A model generated the notes under the pieces. It did not search any database, had not been told where the DNA came from, and was given only the letters and a program-made list of their open reading frames with translations. Both the position numbers and the translations under genes were made by a program. Source: Sphaerisporangium krabiense (GTDB lineage: Bacteria > Actinomycetota > Actinomycetes > Streptosporangiales > Streptosporangiaceae). Taken from it: 64,000 nt of DNA. Shown here piece after piece: positions 14,313 to 26,243 of this stretch. The DNA is taken from NCBI RefSeq assembly GCF_014200435.1, contig NZ_JACHBR010000001.1, forward strand, positions 1,550,001 to 1,614,000. Direction: 5' to 3'. Position 1 is the first letter of the stretch, and each line of letters opens with the position of its first letter.

Positions 14313-15275
14313 TCAGCGGAGGCTCGTCAGGAGGTCGTCCCAGTCGGCGAGGAAGCGTTTCAGGCCGTATCTGGACAGGGCGGCGGTGCGGGCTTGCCGG
14401 CCGGTGTGGTGGGCGTGGGCCAGGTCGCCGGTGAAGGTTTCGAGGGCGGTGCGCAGGGTGGCGGGGTTGGTGGAGAGGACGCCCGCGCCGGGGGGGACGG
14501 CCTCTACCGCCTCGGTGGTGGCGAGCGCGACCACGGGGAGGCCGAGGAGCATGGCCTCGATGAGGGACAGGCCGAGGGACGTCCAGCGGTAGGGGTGCAG
14601 GTAGACGCGGCGGCGGGCCAGTTCGGCGTGCATGGCGGCCTGCGGGAGGTCTTCGTGGACGGTGATCCGGCCGGGTGGCGTGGCCAGGTGGGACGGCAGG
14701 CCGGTCACGCCCATGCCGAAGACGTCGAGAGGGACGGTCGCGGCGAAGGCGGGGAGGAGGTCGGTGCCGGCCACGCGGGTGCGCCGGATCGGCTCATTGA
14801 CGACGACCCCGGCGCGGGGCAGCTCGCCCGTGTAGTGGTGACCGGGGTCGACGACGCCATGCTCGATGACGTGGACGGGCGCGCGGCCGGAGTCCCAGAA
14901 GAGGGCGTTGAAGTGGGTGACGTGGACGAGGGGGATATCGTCGCGGTCGGCCAGGGGGTGGCGGGTGCGGGGGACGTCGCCCGCGGGGGTGTTGTGCTCG
15001 ACGTAGACGGCGGGGACGTCCCGGCCGGGGCGGCGGCCGGTCCAGCGGTGCGCCAGCTCGATCTCGTGGGGCCGTTGCAGGACGACCACGTCGAAGTCCT
15101 CGCCGACGAGCCGGTCCGCGGGCACCTCCCGGACGCTCGCGGGCCACGGGTACGTCCGCGCCCGTCCCCGCCCGTCCGGGCCGCGGCCCGGGACCACCGG
15201 GACCAGGTAGTCATGCGCGCCCTGGACGAAGGCCGTGGCCCACGACCCGTGCACATGCCAGAAGAGGATCCTCAT
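14313..15275 (-). CDS. Glycosyltransferase, GT4/group 1 type
   Basis: The 320-residue GT-B enzyme begins MRILFWHVHGSWATAFVQGA. It has VYVEHNTPAGDVPR in the acceptor-domain region, LVHVTHFNALFWDS and VIEHGVVDPG at the domain junction. The donor-binding signature is WTSLGLSLIEAMLLGLPVVA, with the second Glu of the EX7E motif and the usual following AT..T. It would transfer a sugar in the cytosol. Its ATG overlaps the stop of the GmhB-like phosphatase gene (ATGA), tying it to heptose metabolism and the divergent cluster. Confidence 0.85.
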   Translation of the reverse strand: MRILFWHVHGSWATAFVQGAHDYLVPVVPGRGPDGRGRARTYPWPASVREVPADRLVGEDFDVVVLQRPHEIELAHRWTGRRPGRDVPAVYVEHNTPAGDVPRTRHPLADRDDIPLVHVTHFNALFWDSGRAPVHVIEHGVVDPGHHYTGELPRAGVVVNEPIRRTRVAGTDLLPAFAATVPLDVFGMGVTGLPSHLATPPGRITVHEDLPQAAMHAELARRRVYLHPYRWTSLGLSLIEAMLLGLPVVALATTEAVEAVPPGAGVLSTNPATLRTALETFTGDLAHAHHTGRQARTAALSRYGLKRFLADWDDLLTSLR

Positions 15276-16150
15276 GCGTGCCCCGGCGATCGGGAGGAGC
15301 GGAACGCAGTGCGGCGCCGTGAGGCTTCCGCGCGGACGGCACGCCGCCGGGAACCGGGTTCCGCACGTCCCGTGACGGGATCCACCACATCAGGGATGTC
15401 CTCCGCACACGGCGAGGGGGAATGACCGGCGAAACCCTGCTCGTCCGGAAAGCGGGGACGGTCGAGGACGGCCGCCGCATCCGCGCAGGGATGACGACCG
15501 GCGAGATCATGCTCGTCCGGAGAAGGGGGAGGGCCGAGGGTGGCCGTCATGGGTGGCCGGGAGGGATGGCCGGTGGCGGTCTTGCGGTCTGGGCAGGGGG
15601 GGCAGGTCGGTGGGGCCGGGGTCGGGCGAGGCGTTAAGGCCATTTCGACGGCGAGGGGGAGGTCGGCGGCGACCTCGGTGGCGGAGGTCACCTCGGCGGG
15701 GAGGGTTTCCGGGGTCGGGACGAGGATGCCCCGGGCGCCGGCGGCGTGGGCGGCTCGCGTGTCGCGGGCTATGTCGCCGATGAGGACGCAGTCGCGGGGG
15801 GCGATGCCGAGGACGGCCGCGGCGCGCAGGATCAGGCCGGGGGCGGGCTTGCGGCAGGGGCAGCCGTCGCCGTCGTCGTGGGGGCACACGGCCCAGATGG
15901 CGAACGGGCCGAGGAGGTCCTCGACGCGCCTGTTGACGGCGTCGAGCTGGGCGGGGGTGATGAGTCCCTTGGCGATGCCGGACTGGTTGGTGACCACGCC
16001 GACCGGCACGGACGCGGCGCGCAGCCGGTCGAGGGCGGCGCGGGCGCCGGGCATGGGTTCCACGCGCGCGGGGTCGGTGTTGTAGGGGACGTCCTTGACG
16101 AGCGTCCCGTCTCGGTCGAACAGCACGGCGGCCGGCAGATCGACTCCCAT
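15272..16150 (-). CDS. gmhB: D-glycero-D-manno-heptose-1,7-bisphosphate 7-phosphatase-like (GmhB) with a long odd tail
   Basis: The first 175 residues are a HAD-IIIA phosphatase: AAVLFDRDGTLVKDVPYN (nucleophile Asp), GVVTNQSGIAKGLIT, the GmhB-specific zinc loop CPHDDGDGCPCRKPAPG with three cysteines and a histidine, and CVLIGDIARDTRAAHAAGA. This enzyme removes the 7-phosphate from heptose bisphosphate, matching GmhA and HldE nearby. Residues about 176-292 are a Pro/Arg-rich, probably disordered extension absent from normal GmhB (about 180-190 residues). Part of it comes from an imperfect DNA repeat at 15423-15450 and 15494-15522. The tail may result from loss of the original stop. Confidence 0.8.
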   Translation of the reverse strand: MGVDLPAAVLFDRDGTLVKDVPYNTDPARVEPMPGARAALDRLRAASVPVGVVTNQSGIAKGLITPAQLDAVNRRVEDLLGPFAIWAVCPHDDGDGCPCRKPAPGLILRAAAVLGIAPRDCVLIGDIARDTRAAHAAGARGILVPTPETLPAEVTSATEVAADLPLAVEMALTPRPTPAPPTCPPCPDRKTATGHPSRPPMTATLGPPPSPDEHDLAGRHPCADAAAVLDRPRFPDEQGFAGHSPSPCAEDIPDVVDPVTGRAEPGSRRRAVRAEASRRRTAFRSSRSPGHA

Positions 16151-16315
16151 GGCCCTGGGCTACCCGGCCCCCCAGCCGACAAACACCCCCCGTCCGCTAC
16201 TAAGCGTGACAAAGCTCAAGATTACCGCCTCTCTACCTCGACTTATGCGCAAAGCCGCGTTTGCGAGCCGCTTCGCTCGGTAACCAGACTCCCGCGGCCC
16301 TACGGAGGTAAGCCG

Positions 16316-24148: not shown

Positions 24149-25284
24149 ACGACCGCCCCCCGGACACCCCCGCCTCGCGCCGCTCCGCCGCCGGGCCGGC
24201 CGGCGAGGCGCAGACGGACCGGCGGGCGTACGGCAGGCGTCCCGCGCCGCGGCGCATCGTCCCCCGCGAGCCCGCGCCCGAGCGCCGCGTGCTCACCGGC
24301 CGCCGCCTCCCGGGCGGGCGGGCCGGGGCGCCGGTCCTGCTGGTGCTGCGCGGGCTCGGCTTCGGCGACCTGCTCACGGCCGTGCCGGCGCTGCGGGCGC
24401 TGCGGAGCGCCTACCCGGGTCACCGCCTGGTGCTCGCCGCGCCCGCCGCGCTGTCCGGCCTGGTCTCGCTGATCTCCGCGGTGGACGCGCAGCTCGACGT
24501 GTCCGGGCCGGGCCCCGTGCCGCTCGAACGCCCCGACCTCGCGGTCAACCTGCACGGCAGCGGCCCGGAGAGCATCGTGGCGCTGTCGCGGATCCGCCCC
24601 GGGCGGCTGCTCAGCCACGCCCACCCGGAGTTCCCCGGGCTCGACGGCCCGATGTGGGACCCGAAGGCGCACGAGGTGCACCGCTGGTGCGACCTGCTGG
24701 CGTGGTACGGCGTCCCCGCCGACCCGGCCGACCTGCTGCTGCCCGCCACCTCCACCATGTCCACCATGTCCACCACGTCCACCACGTCCACCACGACCGG
24801 CCACGTCGTGGTCCACCCGGGCGCGGCCTCGCGGGCCCGGTGCTGGCCGGTGGAGCGGTTCGCCGAGGTGGCCGCCGCGCTGGCCGAGCGGGGCCACCGC
24901 GTCATGATCACCGGCAACGCCGCCGAGCGGTCGCTGGCGTTCCGGGTCGGCACGCTGGCCGGGCTGCCGGTGGAGTCGGTGCTGGCCGGGCGCACGGACC
25001 TGCGCGACCTCGCCGGGCTGGTAGCCGGGGCGCGCCTGGTGATCTGCGGGGACACCGGTGTCGCCCACCTCGCCACCGCCTGCGCCACCCCTTCGGTCGT
25101 GCTGTTCGGCCCGGTGTCCCCCGACCAGTGGGGCCCTCCGCCCGACCCCCGCCACATCGCCCTGTGGACGGGCCGTTCGGGCGACCCGCACGGCAACCGG
25201 CCCGACCCCGGGCTGCTGGAGATCGGCACCGAGGTCGTGCTGGACGCCGCGGCGACCCTGCTGCAGGCGGAGGCCGTCCGGTGA
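24139..25284 (+). CDS. Second GT9-family heptosyltransferase-like protein
   Basis: The 381-residue protein starts at ATG 24139. A charged, Pro-rich leader of about 65 residues precedes the GT9 core: [60 protein letters not shown] and [20 protein letters not shown], the ADP-heptose site. Between the two domains is a Ser/Thr/Met run, [16 protein letters not shown], coded by a 9-bp tandem repeat. The core enzyme should transfer a heptose like the GT9 gene at 18978. The repeat is in a linker, so copy-number changes (multiples of 3) would keep the frame. Confidence 0.85.
24751..24795 (+). repeat. Five copies of a 9-bp repeat TCCACCRYG inside the GT9 gene
   Basis: Units are TCCACCATG twice then TCCACCACG three times, encoding Ser-Thr-Met/Thr. 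The unit is nearly identical to that at the start of the rho-like gene (TCCACCGTG), about 9.6 kb away. Confidence 0.85.
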
Positions 25285-26243
25285 CCGCGCGCCGGGTGGT
25301 CGTGACCGGGGGCGCCGGCTTCCTCGGCTCGCACCTGTGCGAGCGCCTGCTGGCGGGCGGCGCGAGCGTCATCTGCATGGACAACTTCCTGACCGGCGCG
25401 CCCGCCAACGTGGAGCACCTCATGGGACGGCCCCGGTTCCGCCTGGTCGAGTGTGACCTGACCGGGTTCGTCCACGTGCCCGGCGAGGTGGACCTCGTGC
25501 TGCACTTCGCCTCGGCCGCCTCCCCCGCCGACTACCTGCGCCATCCGATCGCCACGCTCAAGGTGGGCAGCCTCGGCACTCTGCACGCCCTCGGCCTCGC
25601 CCGCGAGAAGGGGGCCCGGTTCGTGCTGGCCTCCACGAGCGAGGTGTACGGCGACCCGCTGGAGCACCCGCAGCGGGAGACGTACTGGGGCAACGTCAAC
25701 CCGGTCGGGCCGCGCAGCGTGTACGACGAGGCCAAGCGGTTCTCCGAGTCGCTGACCACCGCCTACCGCGACTCCCACGGCGTCGACACGGGCATCGTGC
25801 GCATCTTCAACACCTACGGCCCGCGCATGCGCCCCTACGACGGCCGGGCCATCCCGACGTTCATCCGCCAGGCGCTCGCCGGCGAGCCGATCACCGTCAC
25901 CGGGGACGGCTCGCAGACCCGTTCCATCTGCTACGTCGAGGACACGGTCGAGGGGATACTCGCCCTGGCCGACGCGGCCTTCGAGGGGCCCGTCAACATC
26001 GGCAACCCGTCGGAGCTGTCGATGCTGCGGCTGGCCACGACGATCCGCGACCTCGCCGGCTCGTCCTCGCCGATCCGGTTCGTGGCCCGCCCGGTGGACG
26101 ACCCCGCCGTGCGCCGCCCCGACACCTCCCTGGCCGCCCGGCGGCTCGCCTGGCGGCCCCGCGTGGACGTGGACACGGGCCTGCGCCGCACGATCGCCTG
26201 GTTCCGGCGTGAGCTGCTGGAGAAGACCCGTCCGGCGTCCTGA
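25281..26243 (+). CDS. NAD-dependent epimerase/dehydratase, UDP-glucuronate decarboxylase (UDP-xylose synthase)-like
   Basis: The 320-residue extended SDR starts at GTG 25281: [74 protein letters not shown], catalytic Tyr148-Lys152 in [28 protein letters not shown] and [16 protein letters not shown]. The SPADY and [12 protein letters not shown] stretches are typical of UDP-xylose synthases, which decarboxylate UDP-glucuronate, rather than of HldD or RmlB. A pentose donor (UDP-xylose or the 4-keto form) may therefore join heptose in the final glycan. It is the last gene of the rightward operon, ending 5 nt from a convergent permease gene. Confidence 0.85.

Follow-up and report, generated by a model that had tools for sequence, protein, structure and literature searches.

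A 64-kb stretch of the Sphaerisporangium krabiense genome (C1:1550001-1614000 of 8.53 Mb; all 64,000 nucleotides are called the window, and positions without a prefix refer to it) contains eleven genes at 14313-26243 that an earlier note, made from the sequence alone, had assigned to GmhA, HldE, a GmhB-like phosphatase, two heptosyltransferase-like enzymes of glycosyltransferase family 9 (GT9), two GT4 enzymes, one GT2 enzyme, a NodU-type carbamoyltransferase, an SDR oxidoreductase and an enzyme resembling UDP-xylose synthase (UXS). Matches to Pfam and NCBIfam profiles, read together with the translations, confirmed these families for all eleven genes, which are listed here with two putative promoters:

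14313-15275, minus strand: GT4a, GT4-type glycosyltransferase (PF13692, 34.7 bits; cut-off 27)
15272-16150, minus strand: GmhB-like HAD-IIIA phosphatase, heptose 1,7-bisphosphate 7-phosphatase type (TIGR01656, 98.8 bits; cut-off 84.15)
16161-16184, minus strand: putative sigma-B/F-type promoter of the GmhB/GT4a pair, GTTT-N15-GGGTA
16259-16282, plus strand: putative sigma-B/F-type promoter of the carbamoyltransferase operon, GTTT-N15-CGGTA, with the ATG 57 bases downstream
16316-18025, plus strand: O-carbamoyltransferase of the NodU/TobZ family (PF16861, 214 bits; PF02543, 187 bits)
18022-18981, plus strand: GT2 glycosyltransferase, MftF-like (PF00535, 53.8 bits; TIGR03965, 89 bits, below the cut-off of 280)
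18978-20051, plus strand: GT9a, GT9 heptosyltransferase-like, with Asn replacing the Asp of WaaC/WaaF (PF01075, 75 bits; cut-off 22)
20048-21241, plus strand: GT4b, GT4-type glycosyltransferase, MshA-like (TIGR03449, 218 bits, below the cut-off of 462.5)
21245-21802, plus strand: GmhA, sedoheptulose-7-phosphate isomerase (TIGR00441, 174.5 bits, below the cut-off of 209.45)
21799-23187, plus strand: HldE, bifunctional heptose-7-phosphate kinase and heptose-1-phosphate adenylyltransferase (rfaE_dom_II, above cut-off)
23285-24148, plus strand: SDR oxidoreductase (PF00106, 143 bits)
24145-25284, plus strand: GT9b, GT9 heptosyltransferase-like, with the canonical Asp (PF01075, 103 bits; cut-off 22)
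25281-26243, plus strand: UXS, UDP-glucuronate decarboxylase (341 bits to human UXS1 structures)

The rightward genes from 16316 to 23187, described earlier as overlapping or nearly touching, were found to be spaced by -4, -4, -4, +3 and -4 bases, with starts chosen from the overlaps. A 97-base gap follows HldE, after which SDR, GT9b and UXS overlap by 4 bases each, and GT4a and the GmhB-like phosphatase are transcribed leftward from the same 165-base divergent region as the rightward genes. Genes were set by family matches and overlapping starts; gene calling based on the GC content of third codon positions was of no use in this block of 74-78% GC.

The conserved synteny that the earlier note had proposed to look for was present. 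Of 396 Actinomycetota species, 42 had a carbamoyltransferase ortholog (at least 65% identity), and HldE was found in 38 of these 42 genomes (in 35 within 20 kb), compared to 12 of the 354 genomes without the carbamoyltransferase; because the cluster is conserved to this extent, a chance grouping of the eleven genes can be ruled out. The corresponding counts for GT9a were 36 of 42 and 6 of 354, and 41 of 42 GT9a-carrying genomes also had HldE, the two genes being linked in 40 of them. Five carbamoyltransferase matches at 41-49% identity had been left out of these counts (reducing 47 genomes to 42); at the cut of the initial search, before they were dropped, 34 of the 246 genera sampled from Actinomycetota had the carbamoyltransferase. 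The nearest named relatives among the matches listed, mostly at 75-82% identity, were from Sphaerisporangium, Microbispora, Microtetraspora and Planobispora, which we take to be Streptosporangiaceae, and from Nonomuraea, which is assigned to that family.

We then compared 83 actinomycete loci, which rest on the best 80 of 565 matches and therefore lean to close relatives. Loci with at least eight modules carried 26 genus-level labels, some of them groups of metagenome-assembled genomes (MAGs). Both gmhA and hldE were present in 64 of the 69 loci with at least five modules, the other five being without either HldE (L015, L038, L046, L080) or GmhA (L089). The 14 loci with fewer than five modules, which stand outside this count, comprised eight with the carbamoyltransferase only, five on stretches shorter than 13 kb, and the Streptomyces locus L057, complete with 21.6 kb, where four modules were found. 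GT4a orthologs were found in 66 of the 83 loci and the SDR in 41.

Sugar-nucleotide enzymes, carbamoyltransferase and the two GT9 proteins

In comparisons with solved structures, GmhA was nearest to phosphoheptose isomerases and the GmhB-like protein to the D,D-heptose 1,7-bisphosphate phosphatase 4pnh. Glu57 and His172 of GmhA were each kept in 69/69 sequences, as were both HAD Asp residues and all four Zn ligands of GmhB. The adenylyltransferase domain of HldE scored above its cut-off (rfaE_dom_II, 188.5 bits against 181.5) and was the sole match genome-wide, whereas its kinase domain fell below (126.1 bits against 345); among 66 rows, the kinase Asp was kept in all 65 that were not gapped there, and the adenylyltransferase His pair in all 63. 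A position that has been linked to nucleoside triphosphate promiscuity (PMC11573728, PMC11461863) was occupied, among 63 non-gap rows, by Arg in 46, by Tyr in 10, by His in 6, one of these being the HldE of the window, and by Leu in 1. A genome-wide profile search for the 6-epimerase HldD gave nothing above the 274.6-bit cut-off (best 126.6), and the D,D-heptose form is therefore predicted. Thus all three enzymes of the ADP-heptose pathway, GmhA, HldE and GmhB, were found with their catalytic residues, although several curated NCBIfam cut-offs were missed, and the conserved residues support a heptose-nucleotide branch that would be complete up to ADP-D,D-heptose. Two tandem GmhA-like open reading frames (ORFs) with SIS domains, 35% identical to the GmhA of the cluster, lie elsewhere in the genome (C1:4411616-4413139); none of the other cluster proteins had a match in the surrounding 16 kb (L108).

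The UXS protein matched human UDP-glucuronate decarboxylase 1 at 341 bits, as compared to 146 bits for the next family in the structure-sequence comparison, and kept its Ser/Tyr/Lys residues in 69/69 sequences, so that the earlier UXS-like assignment is firm at the level of sequence. The carbamoyltransferase possessed both domains of the TobZ/NodU type, matched PDB entry 7xb6 (318 bits) and then TobZ (290 bits) most closely, and was invariant in 93/93 sequences at twelve conserved His/Asp/Asn/Arg positions of our own choosing, as expected of the NodU-type enzyme that had been named.

The description of both GT9 proteins as heptosyltransferase-like held in part. Both exceeded the PF01075 cut-off, and GT9b kept the pocket Asp of the D(T/S)G..H motif of WaaC and WaaF in 61/61 non-gap rows, 2 of its 63 rows being gapped there. 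GT9a, however, had Asn262 in 72/72 sequences (63/63 actinomycete and 9/9 Burkholderiaceae), aligned with the Asp of WaaF and of the GT9 structure 3tov. As the pocket Asp of WaaC/WaaF-type enzymes presumably binds the donor, GT9a is predicted to have a changed donor or acceptor preference, and because of this invariant Asn its donor is less certain than the earlier note assumed. In a tree of 42 of the 135 GT9 sequences, GT9a and GT9b separated with 100/99 support, with both phyla on each side.

The substitution raises the alternative that the GT9 enzymes use other donors and that the heptose nucleotide is consumed differently, in which case no heptose-heptose unit like that of a lipopolysaccharide (LPS) core would be formed. 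This would account for the Asn in every GT9a and for the weak match of GT9a to WaaC/WaaF structures (27-32 bits; GT9b matched WaaF 1psw at 53 bits), and the Arg found in most HldE rows would make CDP- or UDP-heptose possible in many loci, the window having His. GT9b nevertheless keeps the Asp, the His and an N-terminal Asp in all non-gap rows, and the co-occurrence of HldE with GT9a in all but one of the GT9a genomes also speaks against it; we regard this alternative as unlikely.

A second GT4b/GT9b pair (60% and 50% identity) is located elsewhere in the genome (L109:7586-9647, about C1:4227586-4229647). A GTTT-N15-CGGTA site (C1:4227449-4227472) and an SDR gene come after this pair, which is perhaps a satellite of the same pathway.

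Relation to the cwg operon of Streptomyces coelicolor

An operon named cwg was reportedly described in S. coelicolor by Hong et al. in 2002, so that finding clustered heptose genes in a Gram-positive is, by itself, no novelty. The cwg ("putative cell wall glycan") operon comprises SCO6179-SCO6190 and is a partly sigma-E-dependent, vancomycin-induced envelope-stress operon (Tran et al. 2019, PMC6767563). Its fifth gene, SCO6183, is annotated as a putative heptosyl transferase (PMC5882110), its eighth as a phosphoheptose isomerase and its ninth as a bifunctional synthase/transferase (PMC5839063).

We searched for the published cwg promoter and found it, with up to 3 mismatches, in 10 genomes among the 392 of a single genus, taken as Streptomyces. 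Seven of these ten matches were directly before UXS-carbamoyltransferase, one was before GT2, and two preceded no module in the 1.5 kb examined. The exact match occurred in one genome (L123), 148 bases ahead of a possible UXS start, compared to a published distance of 147, and was followed by the order UXS-Carb-GT2-GmhB-GT9a-GT4a-GT4b-GmhA-HldE-GT9b-GTK-GTL, in which GT9a, GmhA and HldE occupy the fifth, eighth and ninth places, as in the cwg annotations. The exact pattern had no match in a set of 92 loci. The ORF divergent from cwg in L123 (L123:15907-16731) is a polysaccharide deacetylase (PF01522).

Ten of the 12 cwg gene families were present as orthologs in the window (10/10 found in both the window and L123), and on this orthology the cluster is a rearranged Streptosporangiaceae counterpart of the cwg system. 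The two differ in that cwg is a single co-directional unit of 12 genes and the cluster is made of two divergent units; UXS comes first in cwg and last in the cluster; the cluster has the SDR in addition, but its locus is without the last two GT2 genes of cwg (GTK and GTL), a GTL ortholog (65%) being unlinked to it at C1:2164113. Finally, cwg has a sigma-E site, whereas none was found in the cluster, which has a general-stress-like motif instead.

Counterparts in Burkholderiaceae

Nine non-actinomycete records of a plasmid collection contained a carbamoyltransferase of at least 46.9% identity, and all nine were Burkholderiaceae megaplasmids (L011, L012 and L093-L099: three Burkholderia, three Paraburkholderia, two Caballeronia and one Cupriavidus, with two B. 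multivorans strains both counted). This sample is drawn from the plasmid collection only, with 22-28 kb per locus. The clusters are annotated with waaF, carbamoyltransferase, HAD-IIIA and UDP-glucuronic acid decarboxylase genes, and held orthologs of UXS, the carbamoyltransferase, GT2, GmhB, GT9a, GT4a and GT9b in 9/9, of GT4b and GTL in 8/9, and of the SDR in 4/9. They differed from the actinomycete clusters in having gmhA in 0/9 and hldE in 0/9 of the stretches examined, and in having a PIG-L deacetylase in 8/9 and an ATP-binding cassette (ABC) exporter fused to a receiver domain in 8/9 (domains scanned in two). A Burkholderiaceae GT9a query at 1e-20 matched 13 of 72,556 plasmid records, 11 of them from Burkholderiaceae; the other two were the actinomycete GT9a proteins of Streptomyces CA-256286 and of Nonomuraea.

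The presence of gmhA and hldE in 64 of 69 actinomycete loci but in none of the nine Burkholderiaceae loci fits ADP-heptose as the shared donor, supplied by LPS synthesis in the Gram-negatives. These gene contents are most simply read as a shared pathway that uses up a nucleotide-heptose which Gram-negative hosts already make for LPS. Two Burkholderia strains are described as holding nucleoside diphosphate heptoses (PMC11573728).

Three actinobacterial loci combined features of both kinds. In L128 (G125) and L129 (G232), all four glycosyltransferases were Burkholderiaceae-like and were accompanied by GmhA, GmhB and HldE; L043 mixed both kinds, with Burkholderiaceae-like GT9a and GT4b, all three heptose genes and the carbamoyltransferase. 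By this composition the three loci are an intermediate form, and because L128 and L129 (and partly L043) carry gmhA-gmhB-hldE beside Burkholderia-like glycosyltransferases, these three genes seem to follow the host and not the enzyme lineage. One further actinobacterial genome (L127) contained a Burkholderia-like carbamoyltransferase (61%) alone. In a Burkholderia stagnalis YJ-2 plasmid (L126:12001-22000), GT9a was in two pieces and the carbamoyltransferase, GmhB, GT2 and UXS were not matched; this cluster looks decayed.

Several candidate correspondences were rejected. A PIG-L deacetylase common to both phyla was dropped, as there was no PIG-L match in the actinomycete loci, and the polysaccharide deacetylase of L123 belongs to a different family. 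ABC-receiver matches in actinomycete loci extended over only 169-218 residues at 27-40% identity and were not accepted as orthologs. Remoter carbamoyltransferases from Aquisphaera, Azospirillum, Mycetohabitans, Sinorhizobium and Gemmatirosa, which shared 36-43% identity with the protein of the window or with that of Burkholderiaceae, were set aside; three of them served as outgroups to a tree of 27 of the 93 carbamoyltransferase sequences. One such locus (L100) had a GmhB-like HAD protein and a weak GT4 match, and three others (L102, L124, L125) the carbamoyltransferase only.

Promoters, predicted product and its alternatives

The sigma-E motif AAC-N16/17-CGTC was not found upstream of 16316 or of 16150. 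In the strict form used it was also absent from 40/40 UXS-first loci and present in 2/42 others, where 0.86 and 0.93 were expected, so that the motif may be too strict; unlike it, the published cwg promoter still marks cwg in some genomes. Alignment of eleven Streptosporangiaceae upstream regions, including that of the window, revealed invariant GTTT, CGCT and CTCGGTA elements in an otherwise diverged stretch. The pattern GTTT-N13-16-[GC]GGTA preceded the first gene in 16 of the 81 loci, compared to 0.2 expected: in 11/11 Streptosporangiaceae loci of named genera, where as in the window it takes the form GTTT-N14/15-CGGTA, and in 5 loci of other genera, with none in the single Streptosporangiaceae MAG. 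It occurred twice in the 64 kb of the window on both strands, each time in the 165-base divergent region and once for each unit; this count is weak when taken alone, as 4 of 100 shuffles reached two. Of 8 relatives in which GmhB is divergent, 5 also had the minus-strand copy, and 15 of the 20 copies in 221 kb of ten loci were within 330 bases upstream of the carbamoyltransferase. The consensus for SigB/SigF promoters is GTTT-N15-17-GGGTA, and two sigma factors of the SigB/F/G type scored above cut-off in the genome (C1:3827613 and C1:5933526). We therefore consider the two motifs to be putative general-stress-like promoters, a sigma factor of this type being the inferred partner. Salt activates cwgA of S. 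coelicolor (PMC13011467), and several Burkholderiaceae clusters have genes for catalase, hemerythrin, CsbD, BON or phasin proteins close by, both of which fit a stress role.

Taking these results jointly, the best explanation, and in our judgment a probable one, is that the Streptosporangiaceae form of the cwg system makes a carbamoylated, heptose-containing oligosaccharide that is switched on by stress and strengthens the cell envelope. In this model, the two divergent units would be turned on from the general-stress-type promoters, UXS would convert UDP-glucuronate to UDP-xylose, and the two GT9, two GT4 and one GT2 enzymes would build a short heptose oligosaccharide on an acceptor in the cytoplasm. 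The carbamoyltransferase would esterify one sugar, most likely a heptose, and the short decorated oligosaccharide would be exported by shared machinery to strengthen the envelope, like a small LPS core without LPS. UDP-glucose dehydrogenase provides the step before UXS, and a gene resembling it neighbours the cluster in 9 loci from 5 genera; a protein partly matching polysaccharide pyruvyl transferase was another recurring neighbour (14 loci, 5 genera). The Pseudomonas LPS inner core differs in its lipid A acceptor, its L,D-heptose and its heptose kinases. It is alike in using two heptosyltransferases and in carrying a carbamoylated core heptose, ascribed to the putative O-carbamoyltransferase WapO, which we liken to the cluster enzyme by its description (PMC8005017).

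A wider proposal, which we advance more tentatively as a serious possibility, is that Actinomycetota and Burkholderiaceae share one ancient or horizontally spread pathway for an LPS-core-like but non-LPS O-carbamoylated heptose-xylose oligosaccharide, a stress-induced envelope component for which Gram-negatives would borrow the ADP-heptose of LPS synthesis and Gram-positives would carry their own genes, with one of the two GT9 enzymes forming a distinct Asn-type subfamily.

Several observations weigh against the envelope oligosaccharide proposed here, or against parts of it. A hydropathy count gave no multi-pass membrane enzyme in the cluster (GT4a and GT9b of the window have one hydrophobic stretch each), so that an envelope location is not encoded here, and no flippase, polymerase, polyprenyl-phosphate (lipid-carrier) transferase or ligase was recognised in it. 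Nor were such export or assembly genes recognised among the eight flanking ORF families common to at least 5 genera (one member each of seven was scanned with Pfam, two without a match; the eighth is the Burkholderiaceae ABC-receiver family). It is because none of these was recognised that a short decorated oligosaccharide, cytoplasmic assembly and shared export are favoured. Scores fell below NCBIfam cut-offs for the GmhB equivalog models (99.6 bits against 178), GmhA (174.5 against 209.45) and full-length HldE (284.9 against 521), and GT9a has replaced the pocket Asp. Eight loci had the carbamoyltransferase alone in the stretch examined, and L128 and L129 had no carbamoyltransferase, GT2 or UXS in theirs. 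A plasmid of the Gram-negative Azospirillum oryzae (L101:3414-11767) contained genes resembling GmhA, HldE and UXS next to a carbamoyltransferase of 39% identity, without GT9 matches; we take this to be a different pathway, possibly another one for heptose. The stress motif was found in 0/29 Streptomyces loci, and with an extra G it was not in excess genome-wide (7 matches against 8 for the reversed control). Lastly, the accessible parts of the literature examined held no product description, sugar analysis or mutant phenotype for cwg. The eight carbamoyltransferase-only loci were seven of Geodermatophilaceae (L028, L032, L039, L041, L042, L048, L084) and, set apart from these, one of Microtetraspora (L018).

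The mostly soluble appearance of the enzymes would also suit a gene cluster that makes a secreted natural product of the sugar type and whose glycosyltransferases decorate a small molecule, as ADP-heptose is used in septacidin. O-carbamoyltransferases of the NodU/TobZ family tailor antibiotics (TobZ, GdmN), and actinomycetes make heptose antibiotics such as septacidin and hygromycin B from nucleotide-heptose derived from sedoheptulose 7-phosphate (PMC10948575). These pathways, however, act on a natural-product aglycone, genes for which were not recognised in the cluster, and the eight flanking families, sampled as above, included no aglycone or resistance gene, their only exporter being the ABC transporter of the Burkholderiaceae loci. 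As the carbamoyltransferase is spread over 34 of 246 Actinomycetota genera and Burkholderiaceae too, and as cwg is an envelope-stress operon, we find this origin quite improbable. Still more improbable, in our view, is O-heptosylation of a protein instead of a glycan or lipid. ADP-heptose serves this purpose in E. coli (PMC11461863), and the lack of recognised glycan export genes is compatible with it, but the seven glycosyltransferases of the cwg form, the xylose supply and the carbamoylation exceed what protein heptosylation is understood to need, and no neighbour family resembled a target protein (two had no Pfam match).

The envelope oligosaccharide predicted here has concrete and testable structural features, as its chemistry (D,D-heptose, xylose and carbamoyl) is combined with a cross-phylum pairing; the Asn of GT9a provides a marker residue, and several alternative hosts are available. 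If the prediction is correct, ADP-heptose, a ligand of the innate immune kinase ALPK1 that is mostly discussed for Gram-negatives, would be made by a sizeable minority of actinomycetes, to judge from the 42 of 396 species with the marker carbamoyltransferase, 38 of them with HldE. The cwg operon itself is known; new here are the Burkholderiaceae pairing, the GT9a Asn marker, the stress-type promoters and the finding of no HldD above cut-off. Our literature search gave no description of the pairing, the Asn or the promoters, although Tang et al. 2022, on actinobacterial NDP-heptose synthetases, may cover part of this.

Outside the cluster, comparison with PHROGs gave general matches only. An MMPL-family transporter gene lies at 29008-31329, 2.8 kb past the cluster and outside the neighbour families common to at least 5 genera. 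At 45820-51664, a SpoIIE-type phosphatase ORF on the minus strand overlaps head-to-head with the ORF of a hybrid histidine kinase that has seven HAMP matches together with GAF, HisKA and receiver domains.

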